From a virus: a DNA stretch of 28,495 bases. A program made the translations under genes and the position numbers. Shown piece by piece: positions 4,546 through 26,305 of this stretch (the stretch's first letter is position 1; each line of letters opens with the position of its first letter). The notes beneath the pieces were generated by a model. That model ran no database searches. It saw nothing but the letters and a program-made list of their open reading frames with translations, and was not told where the DNA came from. The stretch is from IMG/VR virus record IMGVR_UViG_3300021379_000981, positions 1 through 28,495 of that record; one strand, written 5' to 3'.

Positions 4546-4965
4546 TTATCTACCGCTTGAGCCAAACCCTCCAGTTCCACGGCTTGTGTCACTTAATTCA
4601 TCTACTATATCAATGGGTAATTGTAACACAGGAGTTATGATTAGCTGTGCTATCCTATCTCCATACTCAGGTATTTCAAACTCTGAGTCTTTATCTGTTT
4701 TAATAACAATCTCTCCACGATAATCAGAGTCTATAGCACCTGTTGTATTAGCTAAGCGTAAACCTTTTATACCTACACTACTACGGGGAATAAGAAATCC
4801 CCCATACCCTTGAGGAATCTCCACTGCTAATCCCGTATGATAGTCTACAGTTTTTGCATTTATTGATACTTTATAGAAGCTTAAATCATAACCCATTGCA
4901 TACTCTGATCCTCGTACAGGAACTCGTGCAGCTGGATCAAGCTTCTTAAAATTTAATGTCCTCAT
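4546..4965 (-). CDS. dut: dUTPase (deoxyuridine 5'-triphosphate nucleotidohydrolase)
   Basis: A complete 139-residue trimeric-type dUTPase that hydrolyses dUTP to dUMP and pyrophosphate. This keeps uracil out of phage DNA and supplies the substrate of thymidylate synthase. All five family motifs are visible in order: G-Y-D-L-S-F, P-R-S-S-V-G-I-K-G, G-A-I-D-S-D-Y-R-G-E, D-R-I-A-Q-L, and the C-terminal R-G-T-G-G-F-G-S-S-G that closes over the active site. The start has a strong AGGAGGT six bases upstream and overlaps the stop of the metallopeptidase gene (ATGA). ThyX, which uses the product, is encoded in the same operon. Confidence 0.96.
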   Translation of the reverse strand: MRTLNFKKLDPAARVPVRGSEYAMGYDLSFYKVSINAKTVDYHTGLAVEIPQGYGGFLIPRSSVGIKGLRLANTTGAIDSDYRGEIVIKTDKDSEFEIPEYGDRIAQLIITPVLQLPIDIVDELSDTSRGTGGFGSSGR

Positions 4966-5549
4966 CGTATTACCTCCTGTACTCTACTTATAGCAAACGC
5001 ATTAATTATTGGTCTATCCCATACTTGGAATATCACTTTTCTTCTAATATCTAGCCGTATTGATTTCTTCATCTCTGCCCATATAGCTTCTGCATCCTCT
5101 TTTGTTACAGGTTCCTTAGCTAACACTGTACTACAATCTGGAAGAGTCATATACTGCTCTCTAGTAATCTTTATAGGGTGCGAGGTGGGGGATAAGGATA
5201 TTATATCTCCTTTTAATCTACCCCATAATTGGGCTGCTCCACATGGACTATACCCTGCTCGTCTCACATAATACAAGCCTAACATATCAGCATGGTACTC
5301 GTCAAGATAAGAATGTTCTTTTGTTCTATTATGTCCTAACTCCAAATGAGCTATCTCATGTCCAATAATACTTGCCAATTCATGTTTATTATTTACAAAA
5401 TTCAATAATCCTGTAGTGACAACAACAGAATGACCTACAACTTCATACTCTTTGCTTACGTAAGTGAGGTTTTGTTTATAGAACATTTCTAACAATAGTA
5501 GGTAAGTTAGTACCCACAATATTAAAAATAAACGATCAATTGTTTTCAT
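4962..5549 (-). CDS. Membrane-anchored M48-type zinc metallopeptidase
   Basis: A 195-residue protein with an N-terminal hydrophobic segment (about residues 6-20) and an M48-like catalytic core. The zinc motif is H64-E65-I-A-H68, and the third ligand lies in D-E84-Y-H-A-D, the E-x-x-A-D arrangement typical of M48 peptidases (HtpX, BepA and LoiP group), followed by R-R-A-G-Y. It is shorter than cellular M48 enzymes but keeps the full zinc site, so it is probably active. The ATG at 5549 follows AGAGGA at 6-base spacing; an upstream TTG at 5564 is less likely. It sits between primase and dUTPase, an unusual place for a protease. Possible roles are remodelling a host membrane or periplasmic protein, but no substrate is suggested by sequence. 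Confidence 0.8.
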   Translation of the reverse strand: MKTIDRLFLILWVLTYLLLLEMFYKQNLTYVSKEYEVVGHSVVVTTGLLNFVNNKHELASIIGHEIAHLELGHNRTKEHSYLDEYHADMLGLYYVRRAGYSPCGAAQLWGRLKGDIISLSPTSHPIKITREQYMTLPDCSTVLAKEPVTKEDAEAIWAEMKKSIRLDIRRKVIFQVWDRPIINAFAISRVQEVIR

Positions 5550-6282
5550 ATAAAATCCTCTCAATTTCGGTAGGTGAATATTCTTTCGGGTCTTTCTCTG
5601 TTATGATAAGCTTAACATGCCATGACACATCATATTTATATGGGAATTTCTTTTTAAGATATATCATCTTTCTCACTAACTGGTCTTCCATCTTATAAGC
5701 CCCAGTCATACCAGGCTTATCACCGTCTAACCATATTTTTATATAATTATATTTATCAAGAAGGGTGGACACATCTCCAGAGTTTATTGAAGTACCGAAT
5801 AACACCCATACATCGGCAAACTCGCTAACTCTCACACCACTGATATAATCTTCTACTAACACTACAGTTTTGTTTCCATTTTCAAACTTATCCACGTGTT
5901 TATATCCTACATTCTTTATACGTTTATCAGGAAAGAATCGTTGTACATAAAATACAACTTCATTATCTTGTATTACAGGAAAGATTAAACTATTATCTTG
6001 ATACCATATAGGAGCATTCCTGATTTCAGAATCTCGAATATAGTATTTGTATAACCAGGACAGAGTTTCTAAACTGAACTCCCGAGGATTACTCGTATAT
6101 TGAGGTAGTGGCACGTCTTTAGCAGCTTTGGTTATTGGAGTTTTCATAAAGGCACGGCGCTCTTTATTATAACTCTTTGCAATCCCACATGTAAAGCATT
6201 TATAACCGTCTGTAAACTCTGCGTAACACGGTGTGTTTATACCACTACCACAATGAGGGCAGCTTGTCATCCTGACTAACAT
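5536..6282 (-). CDS. DNA primase (zinc finger plus TOPRIM)
   Basis: A 248-residue primase of the T7 gp4A type but without a helicase domain. The N-terminus has a zinc-binding element C8-P-H-C11 ... C29-F-T-C32. The TOPRIM fold shows E144 in V-L-V-E-D-Y-I-S-G and D186-x-D188 in W-L-D-G-D-K-P-G, followed by D231-P-K, where primases of this group have a conserved K-D-x-x-E. It would make short RNA primers for the family A polymerase, working with the separate helicase. The start has AAGGAGA seven bases upstream. The gene begins 3 bases after the csrA stop and overlaps the peptidase gene by 14 bases. Confidence 0.9.
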   Translation of the reverse strand: MLVRMTSCPHCGSGINTPCYAEFTDGYKCFTCGIAKSYNKERRAFMKTPITKAAKDVPLPQYTSNPREFSLETLSWLYKYYIRDSEIRNAPIWYQDNSLIFPVIQDNEVVFYVQRFFPDKRIKNVGYKHVDKFENGNKTVVLVEDYISGVRVSEFADVWVLFGTSINSGDVSTLLDKYNYIKIWLDGDKPGMTGAYKMEDQLVRKMIYLKKKFPYKYDVSWHVKLIITEKDPKEYSPTEIERILYENN

Positions 6283-6285
6283 GTA

Positions 6286-6468
6286 TTACTCTCCTTGTTG
6301 CTTTTTGTCTTCTTGTATCTTTAAATAAATTTCTTGTCTATAGATTGGCACATTCTTCTTAGCATTAATACCAATTCTCACTTGATTACCAGCAATACCT
6401 AATACAGCTATGTTGATATCATCCCCAATAATTATTGATTCACCTATTCTTCTCGTAAGTACAAGCAT
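6286..6468 (-). CDS. csrA: CsrA/RsmA-family translational regulator
   Basis: A 60-residue protein that matches the whole length of bacterial CsrA (usually about 61 residues). It begins [10 protein letters not shown], continues through [10 protein letters not shown], and ends with Y43-R44-Q-E-I-Y. The RNA-contacting residues L4, R6 and R44 known for CsrA are present. In the family, the dimer binds GGA motifs, usually in hairpin loops near ribosome binding sites, and represses or stabilises mRNAs. Here it lies two bases after an upstream gene and three before primase. The region just before its ATG carries three GGA triplets within 17 bases, overlapping the ribosome binding site, so autoregulation is plausible. 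Host CsrA could compete for or share targets. Confidence 0.95.
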
Positions 6469-8993: not shown

Positions 8994-9001
8994 GAGGGGT
9001 G

Positions 9002-10237
9002 ATGTTTGATAAGACAACAAAGGGTGTAGAATTGTTTTTACGCGGTATACTTGATAATAAGCCCGTGAAGGGGATTTCTTCTGAACCCGCTACCTTACTA
9101 CCCATACTTAAAGAAAATAGCTTAGAAGAGCCTCAAGACGGCTTACAGCGTATGTCTCCTAAAGGGAGAGGAATGTTAGCCAACCTAGAAGATATTGTTC
9201 TTACTAAATATAAAGACAGTGTGAATGTATGGACAATTGGAATAGGAGCTACACGTACAGAGATACCAGACATAGCTGATTGGCCTTTAAATAAACAAAT
9301 ATCTGTATCAGAAGCCTTCAGTTTATTTGATGCTAGTTTACAGAAATACGAGAAAGCTGTTAGAGAAGCTCTCACTGTAGAAGTAGAGCAGCATGTATTC
9401 GATGCTATGGTTAGTTGGTGTTATAATGTAGGTACTGGATGGTGTAAAAAAGACAAAAATGGTAAAATACGTGCTACATTTATTAGATTAATCAATGATG
9501 GTGTAAAACCTTCTGATAAAAGAGTGTATAAAGCCTTTATGAGGTTTAAAAAACCAGCTGAAATTATAGGAAGACGAAAGAAAGAGGCTAAATTATTAAC
9601 TAAAGGTGTATATAGTCATTGGACTACCGCTGAAGTGGTTCCAGTTAGTAAGAAAGGCTCTCCTCTGTACTCAAAAGCTGAAACAATTGATATTACTCAG
9701 TATTTAAAGAATTCTAAAGCAGAAAGGTCGAAGAGTGTTGACACTATGCTACGTTATTATGAGAAATATAAGCATCATATCAAGAATCACGACTATAAAG
9801 TGGTTATTGAGATGGAAAAACATAGTAAATACAAGAGATTCTTTGTTTTAGATAAAAATAATAACATTATCCGTAGACATCATGTTTCTCATGGTGTAAA
9901 CTCATCATGTAAAGACAATAAAGCTTATGCTTGTACATTTAGTAATGTATTTGGTAGTAGGCAGTCTAGTTTAGGAGCTTTTGTTACAGGAACTACGTAT
10001 TATGGTAAGCATGGATACTCTCTCAACCTGCATGGGTTAGAAGAACGTAACAATAAAGCGTTTGATAGACGTGTTGTTATACATAAGGCTAGTTATGTAA
10101 CTAATTCTTATATAAAACGTCATGGTAGATGTGGAAATTCATGGGGATGCCCAGCTTTAGACCCAGCTATCTACCGAGAAGTGATAGATTTAATCAAAAA
10201 TGGTGCTTTTTTATACATTTCATACAAGGGAGACTAG
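9002..10237 (+). CDS. Modular endolysin: GH24 lysozyme fused to YkuD_2-type L,D-transpeptidase domain
   Basis: The chosen ATG (9002) gives 411 residues; a GTG one codon earlier (8999) lies too close to the AGGAGG. Positions below are counted from that GTG. The lysozyme part (about 50-208) has the T4-type triad spacing exactly: E64, D73, T79 in L-E-D-I-V-L-T-K-Y-K-D-S-V-N-V-W-T-I-G. It should cut the glycan MurNAc-GlcNAc bond. After a linker, residues about 265-412 match the YkuD_2 (murein L,D-transpeptidase) pattern: S-L-G-A-F-V-T-G, then Y-G-K-H-G-Y-S-L-N-L-H-G-L-E, R-V-V-I-H362-K-A, and G-N-S-W-G-C384-P-A. The catalytic His and Cys are both present. No signal peptide is visible, so export would depend on a holin. 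The second domain could cleave, exchange or bind stem-peptide cross-links. Confidence 0.88.
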   Translation: MFDKTTKGVELFLRGILDNKPVKGISSEPATLLPILKENSLEEPQDGLQRMSPKGRGMLANLEDIVLTKYKDSVNVWTIGIGATRTEIPDIADWPLNKQISVSEAFSLFDASLQKYEKAVREALTVEVEQHVFDAMVSWCYNVGTGWCKKDKNGKIRATFIRLINDGVKPSDKRVYKAFMRFKKPAEIIGRRKKEAKLLTKGVYSHWTTAEVVPVSKKGSPLYSKAETIDITQYLKNSKAERSKSVDTMLRYYEKYKHHIKNHDYKVVIEMEKHSKYKRFFVLDKNNNIIRRHHVSHGVNSSCKDNKAYACTFSNVFGSRQSSLGAFVTGTTYYGKHGYSLNLHGLEERNNKAFDRRVVIHKASYVTNSYIKRHGRCGNSWGCPALDPAIYREVIDLIKNGAFLYISYKGD

Positions 10238-13100: not shown

Positions 13101-13364
13101 TCATTCTTTTTCTGTAATTTCTATACATTCATCAAAAGTCTTACCAAGAGCTTGTATTGAATGCTTTAATGTCTGCAAAAAAAGAGCACACTCTTCATTG
13201 ACAGGTCTACCGTCACATATAGTATAATATTGTTCATTACACGGACAATAAAACCTCTCTTCTTCCTTTAGACTTTCTACACCTTCTTCAAACAAATTAA
13301 CCGGAGGGTTTAAGAAGTTTATTCCTATTGGTTCTTTAGATTTAAAACTTTTTATTTCACTCAT
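13101..13364 (-). CDS. Hypothetical protein, last gene of the leftward operon
   Basis: An 87-residue acidic protein with four or five Cys (C-P-C near residue 40, plus C49, C59 and C79) that could bind a metal, though spacing does not match a standard zinc ribbon. TAGGAGA precedes the ATG. It lies 9 bases downstream of the ClpX-like gene, so it is co-transcribed and might be its adaptor or client. That is inference from position only. Confidence 0.65.
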   Translation of the reverse strand: MSEIKSFKSKEPIGINFLNPPVNLFEEGVESLKEEERFYCPCNEQYYTICDGRPVNEECALFLQTLKHSIQALGKTFDECIEITEKE

Positions 13365-13373
13365 ACTATTCTC

Positions 13374-14318
13374 CTACTGTGTTATAACAGCTGGCAGTTG
13401 TTTTGATTCATATTCAAACTCTAAATCAAGAAACATATCATTGATTTTACGTTTTAGATATCTTACGCCTTGACCAGAGTCAAGAGCATCTTTAATTAAC
13501 TTATCTTTGAATGCTTCTGTAAACATATCTATTCCATTACTAGTGAAATGTGATATATCTTGTAGTTTATTAGGAATAATAAGAGTTTCTAAGATGGTAA
13601 GCATTGTATCATATGTCATAACATCTAATTCATTAATAGCTGTAATACGTCCTAACAGTTCTGTTGTTAATCCTATCTTGATTAAGTCTTTTTCTGTTAT
13701 ACATTCCTTTGTTACATCGTCTCCGACATCTGTAGAGCTAAATCCTATTGAGCTAGACTTGGTTGTTTGTCTTAATTGTGTAAATGCTCCTGCAAATACA
13801 AAACTAACATTCTTGAAGTCTTCTTGGTCTTCCACTAGCGTTAGGAGTTCTCCTTGAGTACGGGTGTTCCACCCTTCTGTTTTACCAAAAGAGATACATA
13901 GCTTATCCATTTCATCTATAAACACCACAGTTTGGTCTATTGTCCCTTCTAAAGAGAAATATGGCTGACTAGAGTCGGCTACAAGCCTCTTAGCGTTCGC
14001 TACAATAGCTTTTTGTATATCCTTATAGCTATATGTGGCATTAGCCTCAGGATTGAGTCTAGAGCCATCTATCTTAACTAGAGGGAAGTTTATTAACTTC
14101 TGTAAGCTCTCTATTAGATGGGTTTTCCCTGTTCCTGATGCTCCTATAAGCAGTAGGTTCATCTTTTCTAATGGAGGCTCTCCTTCTAAGAACTTACGTC
14201 TATGAGACATCTTAGAGCGGTTAACAAGGGTTATGAGAAGCTTCTTAGCTTTCTCATGTCCTATAACGAGATCATCCATTTCTGATAGAATTTGTTGATT
14301 TGTAGCATGTCCTAACAT
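13374..14318 (-). CDS. ClpX-like AAA+ unfoldase without zinc finger
   Basis: A 314-residue AAA+ ATPase clearly related to ClpX. It begins with V-I-G-H-E-K-A-K-K (ClpX-like V-I-G-Q-E). It has Walker A G59-A-S-G-T-G-K-T66, Walker B V-F-I-D135-E136-M-D-K, an R224 finger in L-L-G-R-I, and sensor 2 in G284-V-R286-Y-L-K-R. Residues 187-197 read K-S-S-S-I-G-F-S-S-T-D, which retains I191-G-F193, the loop by which ClpX docks on ClpP. The N-terminal zinc domain of ClpX is missing. The pore-loop region has A-T-Y-S-Y instead of G-Y-V-G, so substrate choice may differ. AAAGGAG is upstream. The likely role is to redirect host ClpP or unfold selected proteins. Confidence 0.88.
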   Translation of the reverse strand: MLGHATNQQILSEMDDLVIGHEKAKKLLITLVNRSKMSHRRKFLEGEPPLEKMNLLLIGASGTGKTHLIESLQKLINFPLVKIDGSRLNPEANATYSYKDIQKAIVANAKRLVADSSQPYFSLEGTIDQTVVFIDEMDKLCISFGKTEGWNTRTQGELLTLVEDQEDFKNVSFVFAGAFTQLRQTTKSSSIGFSSTDVGDDVTKECITEKDLIKIGLTTELLGRITAINELDVMTYDTMLTILETLIIPNKLQDISHFTSNGIDMFTEAFKDKLIKDALDSGQGVRYLKRKINDMFLDLEFEYESKQLPAVITQ

Positions 14319-14319
14319 A

Positions 14320-14424
14320 TTAAAACTCTCCTTTAGATAACTTCCTTTTTAAAGTGTTGAACTCTTCTTCGTCAGCATTAACTTTCCTATGAATTAAATA
14401 CACTATCCAAGTTGTTGTATGCAT
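14320..14424 (-). CDS. 34-residue hypothetical protein
   Basis: A short leftward gene of 34 residues, basic at the C-terminus. Its ATG overlaps the stop of the upstream gene by one base (TAATG), with GGGG just before. Its stop falls between the ribosome binding site and ATG of the ClpX-like gene. This tight fit at both ends argues for real translation. Function unknown. Confidence 0.55.
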   Translation of the reverse strand: MHTTTWIVYLIHRKVNADEEEFNTLKRKLSKGEF

Positions 14425-14669
14425 TATCCCCTACTTTTCCTTGCTTTTTCCTTTCTAATTATCTCTCTAGCTTCTTCTTTAATAGTTTCTATTAACATAA
14501 ATAAATTATTATTATCCAGTAATGAAGGCTCAGACAACATTACTTCTAACAAAACTTTTCTTGCCACCTTATAAGTTATATTAGCCGTAACTTCTTCAGT
14601 GACTCTTTGCCTAACTTCATGTCTTATTAGATTTTCTCTTATTTTTAATTTCCATCTACTAATCCACAT
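14424..14669 (-). CDS. Helical hypothetical protein
   Basis: An 81-residue, basic, mostly helical protein rich in R, K, E and V with no membrane segment. GAGGAG lies 6 bases before the ATG. No family recognised. It sits upstream of the ClpX-like gene with overlapping codons. Confidence 0.7.
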   Translation of the reverse strand: MWISRWKLKIRENLIRHEVRQRVTEEVTANITYKVARKVLLEVMLSEPSLLDNNNLFMLIETIKEEAREIIRKEKARKSRG

Positions 14670-14718: not shown

Positions 14719-14934
14719 TCAGTGTTTGCCAGGGTCGTAAAACCCACCACATCCTCTATTTAGTTTAAATTGTGGAGTTCCTAAAAGGATTCTCATTTCC
14801 CCTGCTGGGGGTTCTTTACATACATGACACATCCTTTCTCCATTTCCTATAGCTTCTCTTTCTTCTTGAGAAGCCCATATCTCTTCTTGATACCCACATT
14901 TATTACATTTAATATCAATTATTATTTTTGGCAT
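14719..14934 (-). CDS. FmdB-like zinc-ribbon protein
   Basis: A 71-residue protein that begins M-P-K-I and has C10-x-x-C13-G then C36-x-x-C39, and ends with T-P-Q-F-K-L-N-R-G-C-G-G-F-Y. This arrangement (M-P start, C-x-x-C-G, later C-x-x-C, then P-x-F-K-L near a glycine-rich aromatic end) is that of FmdB-type small zinc ribbons. Such proteins are thought to act as regulators, but evidence is thin. The ribosome binding site is weak (GGGAAAA). Confidence 0.75.
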   Translation of the reverse strand: MPKIIIDIKCNKCGYQEEIWASQEEREAIGNGERMCHVCKEPPAGEMRILLGTPQFKLNRGCGGFYDPGKH

Positions 14935-25749: not shown

Positions 25750-25946
25750 TGTGTATGATAATTGATTTTGTAAAATACAAAGCAGATAGAGAGATAGATT
25801 ATTATTTCTCTACTATGGATGACACTAATCTTAAATTCTGTTGTCCTGATTGTGATTCTACAGATTTTGAAATATATCTTGATATGAGAGCTAAATGTTC
25901 TAGTTGTGAGTTGGAAGTGTTATTAACAGTCGAGGATGACGAATGA
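25749..25946 (+). CDS. Small zinc-ribbon protein
   Basis: A 65-residue acidic protein with C32-P-D-C35 and C50-S-S-C53, a compact zinc ribbon. It overlaps both neighbours by one or four bases. A second in-frame ATG at 25755 is possible. Presence inside the connector cluster suggests a virion or assembly role, but none is known. Confidence 0.7.
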   Translation: MCMIIDFVKYKADREIDYYFSTMDDTNLKFCCPDCDSTDFEIYLDMRAKCSSCELEVLLTVEDDE

Positions 25947-26305
25947 GTTTTGCAACAGAGATGATAGCATGTGCTAGAGACTTAATCCAAGAGTTTGGGG
26001 AGTCTGTTAGCATACAAAGAGTAGCTGAGGGAGCGTATGACCCTACAGACGGTACAGTTGCAGCAGGTACAACAACCAACTACTCAGCTTATGGTGCTCC
26101 TGTAGATTACAATACAAATGAAATAGACGGTAATACAATCCGTATAAATGATATAAAGCTTTGGTTAGAAACTCCTACAACAGGGGAAGTACCAGCTGTA
26201 GGTGATGTAGTGACATTAAACAGTATAGCTTATAGAGTTATGAATGTAGAACAATTAAGAGCACAAGGAAGCGATATTGTTTATTTGTTGCAGTTGAGGC
26301 TGTAA
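25943..26305 (+). CDS. Head closure / neck protein
   Basis: A 120-residue protein with L-I-Q-E-F-G-E-S-V-S-I near residue 14, Y-D-P-T-D-G-T, a P-A-V-G-D-V-V-T-L turn, and Y-R-V-M-N-V-E-Q near the end. This is the usual layout of small beta-barrel head-closure proteins in siphoviruses (Hc1-like). It overlaps neighbours by 1-4 bases in the connector operon. Confidence 0.75.
   Translation: MSFATEMIACARDLIQEFGESVSIQRVAEGAYDPTDGTVAAGTTTNYSAYGAPVDYNTNEIDGNTIRINDIKLWLETPTTGEVPAVGDVVTLNSIAYRVMNVEQLRAQGSDIVYLLQLRL

Follow-up and report, generated by a model that had tools for sequence, protein, structure and literature searches.

The window analyzed here, a 28,495-base IMG/VR record of an uncultivated phage taken at its full length, is that of a small tailed phage. 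Its terminase shares 47% identity with counterparts in ~40-45 kb phages of Hafnia, Salmonella and Escherichia, by which the host is probably a gammaproteobacterium; when the structural half of the window was compared as DNA with cultivated phages, no match emerged. Within a minus-strand cluster of small genes lies the gene for a ClpX-like protein, P0001, to which we also refer as mini-ClpX (Table 1). A good Shine-Dalgarno sequence, AAAGGAGAG, directly precedes its ATG, and the frame remains open for only ~10 further codons upstream (324 codons), so that no zinc domain has been overlooked there. P0001 starts at the equivalent of ClpX residue ~61 and has no N-terminal C4 zinc-binding domain, as the earlier note on this DNA had stated.

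Table 1. Features of the mini-ClpX locus and other genes mentioned in the text (window coordinates unless a relative is named)
Feature	Position	Strand	Basis
ClpX-like AAA+ unfoldase (P0001), 314 aa, without zinc domain or RKH loop	13374..14318	-	ORF and translation, ClpX homology, clade alignment, tree
Sensor 2, GQGVR (R286)	13461..13475	-	aligns with ClpX
Arginine finger, ELLGR (R224)	13647..13661	-	aligns with ClpX
IGF loop (residues 180-210), modeled with low confidence and predicted to be flexible	13689..13781	-	model and alignment
IGF tripeptide (residues 191-193), predicted to dock on ClpP	13740..13748	-	aligned with E. coli ClpX 268-270
Junction LTLVEDQEDFKNVSF at site of deleted ClpX RKH loop (218-236)	13800..13844	-	alignment and model
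Pore-2 segment with clade-invariant Trp150	13854..13880	-	Trp150 aligned with ClpX Ser203, adjoining substrate-contacting Val202
Walker B, VVFIDE (residues 131-136)	13911..13928	-	aligns with ClpX
Pore-1 loop, NATYSYKD replacing ClpX EAGYVGED	14019..14042	-	alignment
Walker A, GASGTGKT (residues 59-66)	14121..14144	-	aligns with ClpX
Immediate neighbors of mini-ClpX	13101-13364; 14424-14669		
C4 zinc-ribbon gene, upstream of mini-ClpX	14719-14934	-	
Pentapeptide-repeat protein, 149 aa	14953-15402	-	PF00805
Small M48-type metallopeptidase	4962-5564	-	HEIAHLELGH
CsrA homologue	6286-6468	-	PF02599 (1.4e-23), phrog_9500
Single ORF combining phage lysozyme with a YkuD_2 L,D-transpeptidase domain	8999-10237	+	PF00959 and PF13645
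Fis-like helix-turn-helix protein, 65-71 aa (relatives)	L050 5376-5573; L224 12721-12936; L237 716-931; L139 2061-2258; G021 25827-26039		cluster CL6; partly by eye

Several other genes of the window deserve mention in their own right. A single reading frame joins lysozyme and L,D-transpeptidase domains, an unusual endolysin arrangement, and the replication cluster includes a CsrA homologue that is a possible phage post-transcriptional regulator. The metallopeptidase has homologues in five other mini-ClpX loci, and the pentapeptide-repeat protein has a similar-looking counterpart, judged by eye, near mini-ClpX in one relative (L243).

P0001 matches AAA in Pfam, and its best NCBIfam family is ClpX. 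It scores far below both ClpX equivalog cut-offs (TIGR00382/PRK05342; 97.1 versus 359 bits and 86.5 versus 370.75 bits) and below that of HslU (TIGR00390; 53.3 versus 362.45 bits). Its identity to bacterial ClpX is 26-28%, and phmmer, VIA-align and the tree all group it with ClpX-like proteins. An AlphaFold monomer (one model, pLDDT 88.5) finds its best PDB matches in ClpX, mostly in ClpXP complexes (Z ~26). HslU, a related HCLR-clade unfoldase that likewise lacks a zinc domain, scores lower in both fold (Z ~22-23) and sequence; it pairs with HslV rather than ClpP and has no IGF motif. Walker A, Walker B, the arginine finger and sensor 2 all align with ClpX, bearing out the core homology first read from the letters alone. 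Judged from its sequence, P0001 is a ClpX-derived AAA+ protein with a complete ATPase core.

Single-sequence scans of viral contigs with P0001 and with the terminase found no match, and pattern and profile scans were required to recover relatives. These identified at least 25 further proteins on viral contigs, 35-46% identical to P0001 and matching it at E 6e-41 or better, whereas every other ClpX in the same comparison scored 6e-26 or weaker. The true size of the clade probably exceeds this count. In a quick tree search with long branches, 18 relatives and P0001 formed one clade (SH-aLRT 100), and the alignment of these 19 sequences shows no variation in the residues of Walker B, the arginine finger and sensor 2 and almost none in those of Walker A. 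Among 50,697 cultivated phage records, we found no clade member and no full-length match to P0001 above 30% identity; a pattern search of bacterial genome contigs, which was not exhaustive, also found no member. Match counts from INPHARED were not taken as evidence for phage families, because many of the matches are unannotated short contigs resembling ordinary bacterial ClpX. In the open-access literature, our search turned up no publication describing a mini-ClpX from a phage.

Two other kinds of phage ClpX-like protein differ from this clade. Annotated full-length phage ClpX proteins (phage G gp258, PA5oct, SCTP-2, Phosso, Lak) share with P0001 an IGF-type tripeptide (IGF, LGF, MGF or IGY) but, unlike P0001, are ~400-440 residues long, retain the zinc-domain cysteines and in most cases GYVG, and come from jumbo phages. 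Short proteins of the better-known PHROG_5534 type (LUZ7, Pylas, phi50-12, R7M, PM135), a label that we assign from their size and from P0001's own match, lack the zinc domain, the canonical RKH motif and a pore-1 aromatic. Their IGF loop, which P0001 has, is wholly deleted, and they form a separate clade (SH-aLRT 100 in the same quick, long-branched tree).

The elements of ClpX that recognize cellular substrates are the zinc domain, the RKH loop and the GYVG pore-1 loop, and bacterial ClpX has all three where P0001 has none. The zinc domain is absent from every aligned clade member. So is the RKH loop (ClpX 218-236), a loss on which the earlier note was silent; in the P0001 model, helix 148-162 is followed by strand 172-177 with no hairpin between them. 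We considered whether the deleted segment was pore-2 and rejected this, as E. coli ClpX numbering shows it to be the RKH loop. Replacing RKH with AAA in ClpX abolishes degradation of ssrA substrates with ClpP (PMC7112951).

The pore loops themselves are altered. Pore-1 reads TYSY in P0001, in agreement with the original observation that it departs from GYVG, and is ~3 residues longer than in ClpX. A tyrosine occupies the pore-1 position in P0001 only; two near-identical relatives have phenylalanine and the rest of the clade has I, V, L, M or T, such that the aromatic residue, central to the grip of ClpX, is missing in most relatives. Pore-2 is shortened relative to ClpX, and 19/19 clade sequences carry a tryptophan where ClpX has Ser203; neither this residue nor the longer pore-1 was mentioned in the earlier note. 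In ClpX, Val202 of pore-2 and Tyr153-Val154 of pore-1 touch the substrate (PMC7112951).

Against this background of change, the docking element is retained. The IGF loop of P0001 follows the GAF strand and precedes the arginine-finger helix, as in ClpX, and its tripeptide occupies the position homologous to that of ClpX. To avoid circularity, we sorted clade members by discovery route; the set found independently of the motif comprises seven members, P0001 included, from search patterns without IGF and seven from a pore-2 pattern. [ILVMF]-G-F is present in 14/14 of these, and the pore-2-pattern members carry [ILMV]GF in 7/7. Across the first seven members the loop varies in sequence and in length (29-34 residues), and its only invariant columns are G and F. 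Shuffles put the chance of [ILVMF]G[FY] in one such loop at 1-4%, and the product over the seven members at ~1e-10 to 1e-12, a figure that ignores relatedness and treats as independent members that are not. In the monomer model, the loop appears as a flexible stretch of low confidence and not as a buried element, one of the points on which the earlier note had made its ClpP-docking proposal hinge. The N-terminal side of the P0001 loop falls ~5 residues short of that in ClpX; changing the length of the IGF loop lowers affinity for ClpP (PMC7112951). Conservation of the tripeptide across a divergent clade, together with the flexible model loop, makes it a well-supported prediction that P0001, a motor derived from ClpX, is built for docking on ClpP, likely that of the host, as the earlier note suggested.

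With the substrate elements changed or lost and the docking loop kept, the substrate-handling face appears to have been remade while the ClpP face was preserved. We therefore favor, at a probability of roughly 0.6, a reading based on alignments and the model in which P0001 would use ATP to unfold proteins while docked on host ClpP, with an altered choice of substrates. Mini-ClpX would assemble as a hexameric ring, its six IGF loops would insert into the hydrophobic pockets of ClpP, probably mainly host ClpP, and a set of proteins chosen by the phage would be threaded into the protease, gripped more by the pore-2 tryptophan than by the pore-1 tyrosine. Such a redirection of proteolysis would be consistent with the absence of zinc domain, RKH loop and GYVG. 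Loss of the loop in the short PHROG_5534 family, which is under a different constraint, speaks for a docking unfoldase, as do the ClpP-like genes of some relatives described below; the mostly lost pore-1 aromatic and the shortened IGF loop speak against one.

Genome context bears on timing and partners. In several relatives, mini-ClpX lies in a replication block, adjoining a primase, a DnaB helicase or a primase/helicase, with PolA following. This position suggests early or middle expression, and action probably early or mid infection, either in taking over the host or on the replication machinery of the phage itself. Also beside or near mini-ClpX in several relatives is a Fis-like helix-turn-helix protein (Table 1). 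The idea that the flanking small genes encode adaptors or clients is not supported, because they are not conserved: neither immediate neighbor has a family match or a homologue in the 19 clade loci compared, the nearest relative included. The C4 zinc-ribbon gene has a 42% identical homologue directly upstream of mini-ClpX in that nearest relative, L136, and beside mini-ClpX in L136 only. We did not accept its product as an adaptor, since L136 has other window genes in common as well.

A peptidase partner may in some lineages be encoded by the phages themselves. A ClpP-like gene (PHROG_1827) occurs in 5/27 clade records, from four lineages, at E 4.4e-32 or better; it lies 4 nt downstream of mini-ClpX on the same strand in L138, nearby in convergent orientation in G021 and in G016/G018, and 8 kb off in G020. 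Among 50 control contigs, drawn to gauge chance, none has a match at E <1e-30 and three have weak matches (Fisher p ~0.004, 26 clade records). At a looser E of 1e-5 the difference is not significant (5/26 versus 3/50, p 0.085). That mini-ClpX pairs with this peptidase instead of host ClpP, a reading that overlaps with the favored one and is helped by the retained catalytic Ser and His, nevertheless seems unlikely to us. Searches with PF00574 and PHROG_1827 found no ClpP in the window, and the ClpP-like gene is absent from 21 other clade records, many of them fragments but some ~40-46 kb. Moreover, the canonical IGF-pocket positions, which we take to include Phe82, Leu114 and Tyr62, are mostly polar rather than hydrophobic in a low-identity alignment of the ClpP-like proteins; the pocket looks degenerate, making host ClpP the likelier dock.

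Rather improbable, too, is that the ring merely occupies host ClpP, blocking or competing with host ClpX or ClpA, or opening the gate as ADEP antibiotics do, and so protects phage proteins and does not degrade chosen substrates. That the docking tripeptide is conserved although the zinc domain, RKH loop and pore-1 aromatic have gone speaks for such an occupier, but a plug would need neither the invariant or nearly invariant ATPase motifs of the clade nor a new invariant pore tryptophan. Least plausible to us is a ClpP-independent remodeler of phage replication complexes, in the manner of ClpX on MuA complexes, with IGF retained for some other contact: although the gene lies between or beside primase and DnaB helicase genes in relatives and the ClpX-like protein of PHROG_5534 phages works without the loop, those same phages indicate that the loop can disappear when unneeded, whereas in the clade phi-G-F is strictly kept amid loop positions that otherwise vary, and several relatives have ClpP-like genes near mini-ClpX.

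Returning to the docking unfoldase, its broadest form can be put forward only tentatively: an as yet undescribed clade of minimal ClpX motors in phages may amount to a reprogrammed ClpXP, with the gripping aromatic shifted from pore-1 to pore-2, host ClpP hijacked as an exchangeable peptidase and, in some lineages, a ClpP-like partner supplied by the phage. Near-complete ClpX genes were already known from annotations of jumbo phages, and small phages with ClpX reduced to its ATPase core and ClpP dock are, within the searches made, undescribed. The sequence features of the clade suggest that phages with mini-ClpX may redirect the destruction of proteins in the cells they infect. An active P0001 would show how little of ClpX suffices to work with ClpP, would be a naturally occurring case in which to ask if pore-2 can stand in for pore-1 in gripping substrates, and would represent a way for phages to bring about targeted degradation in bacteria.
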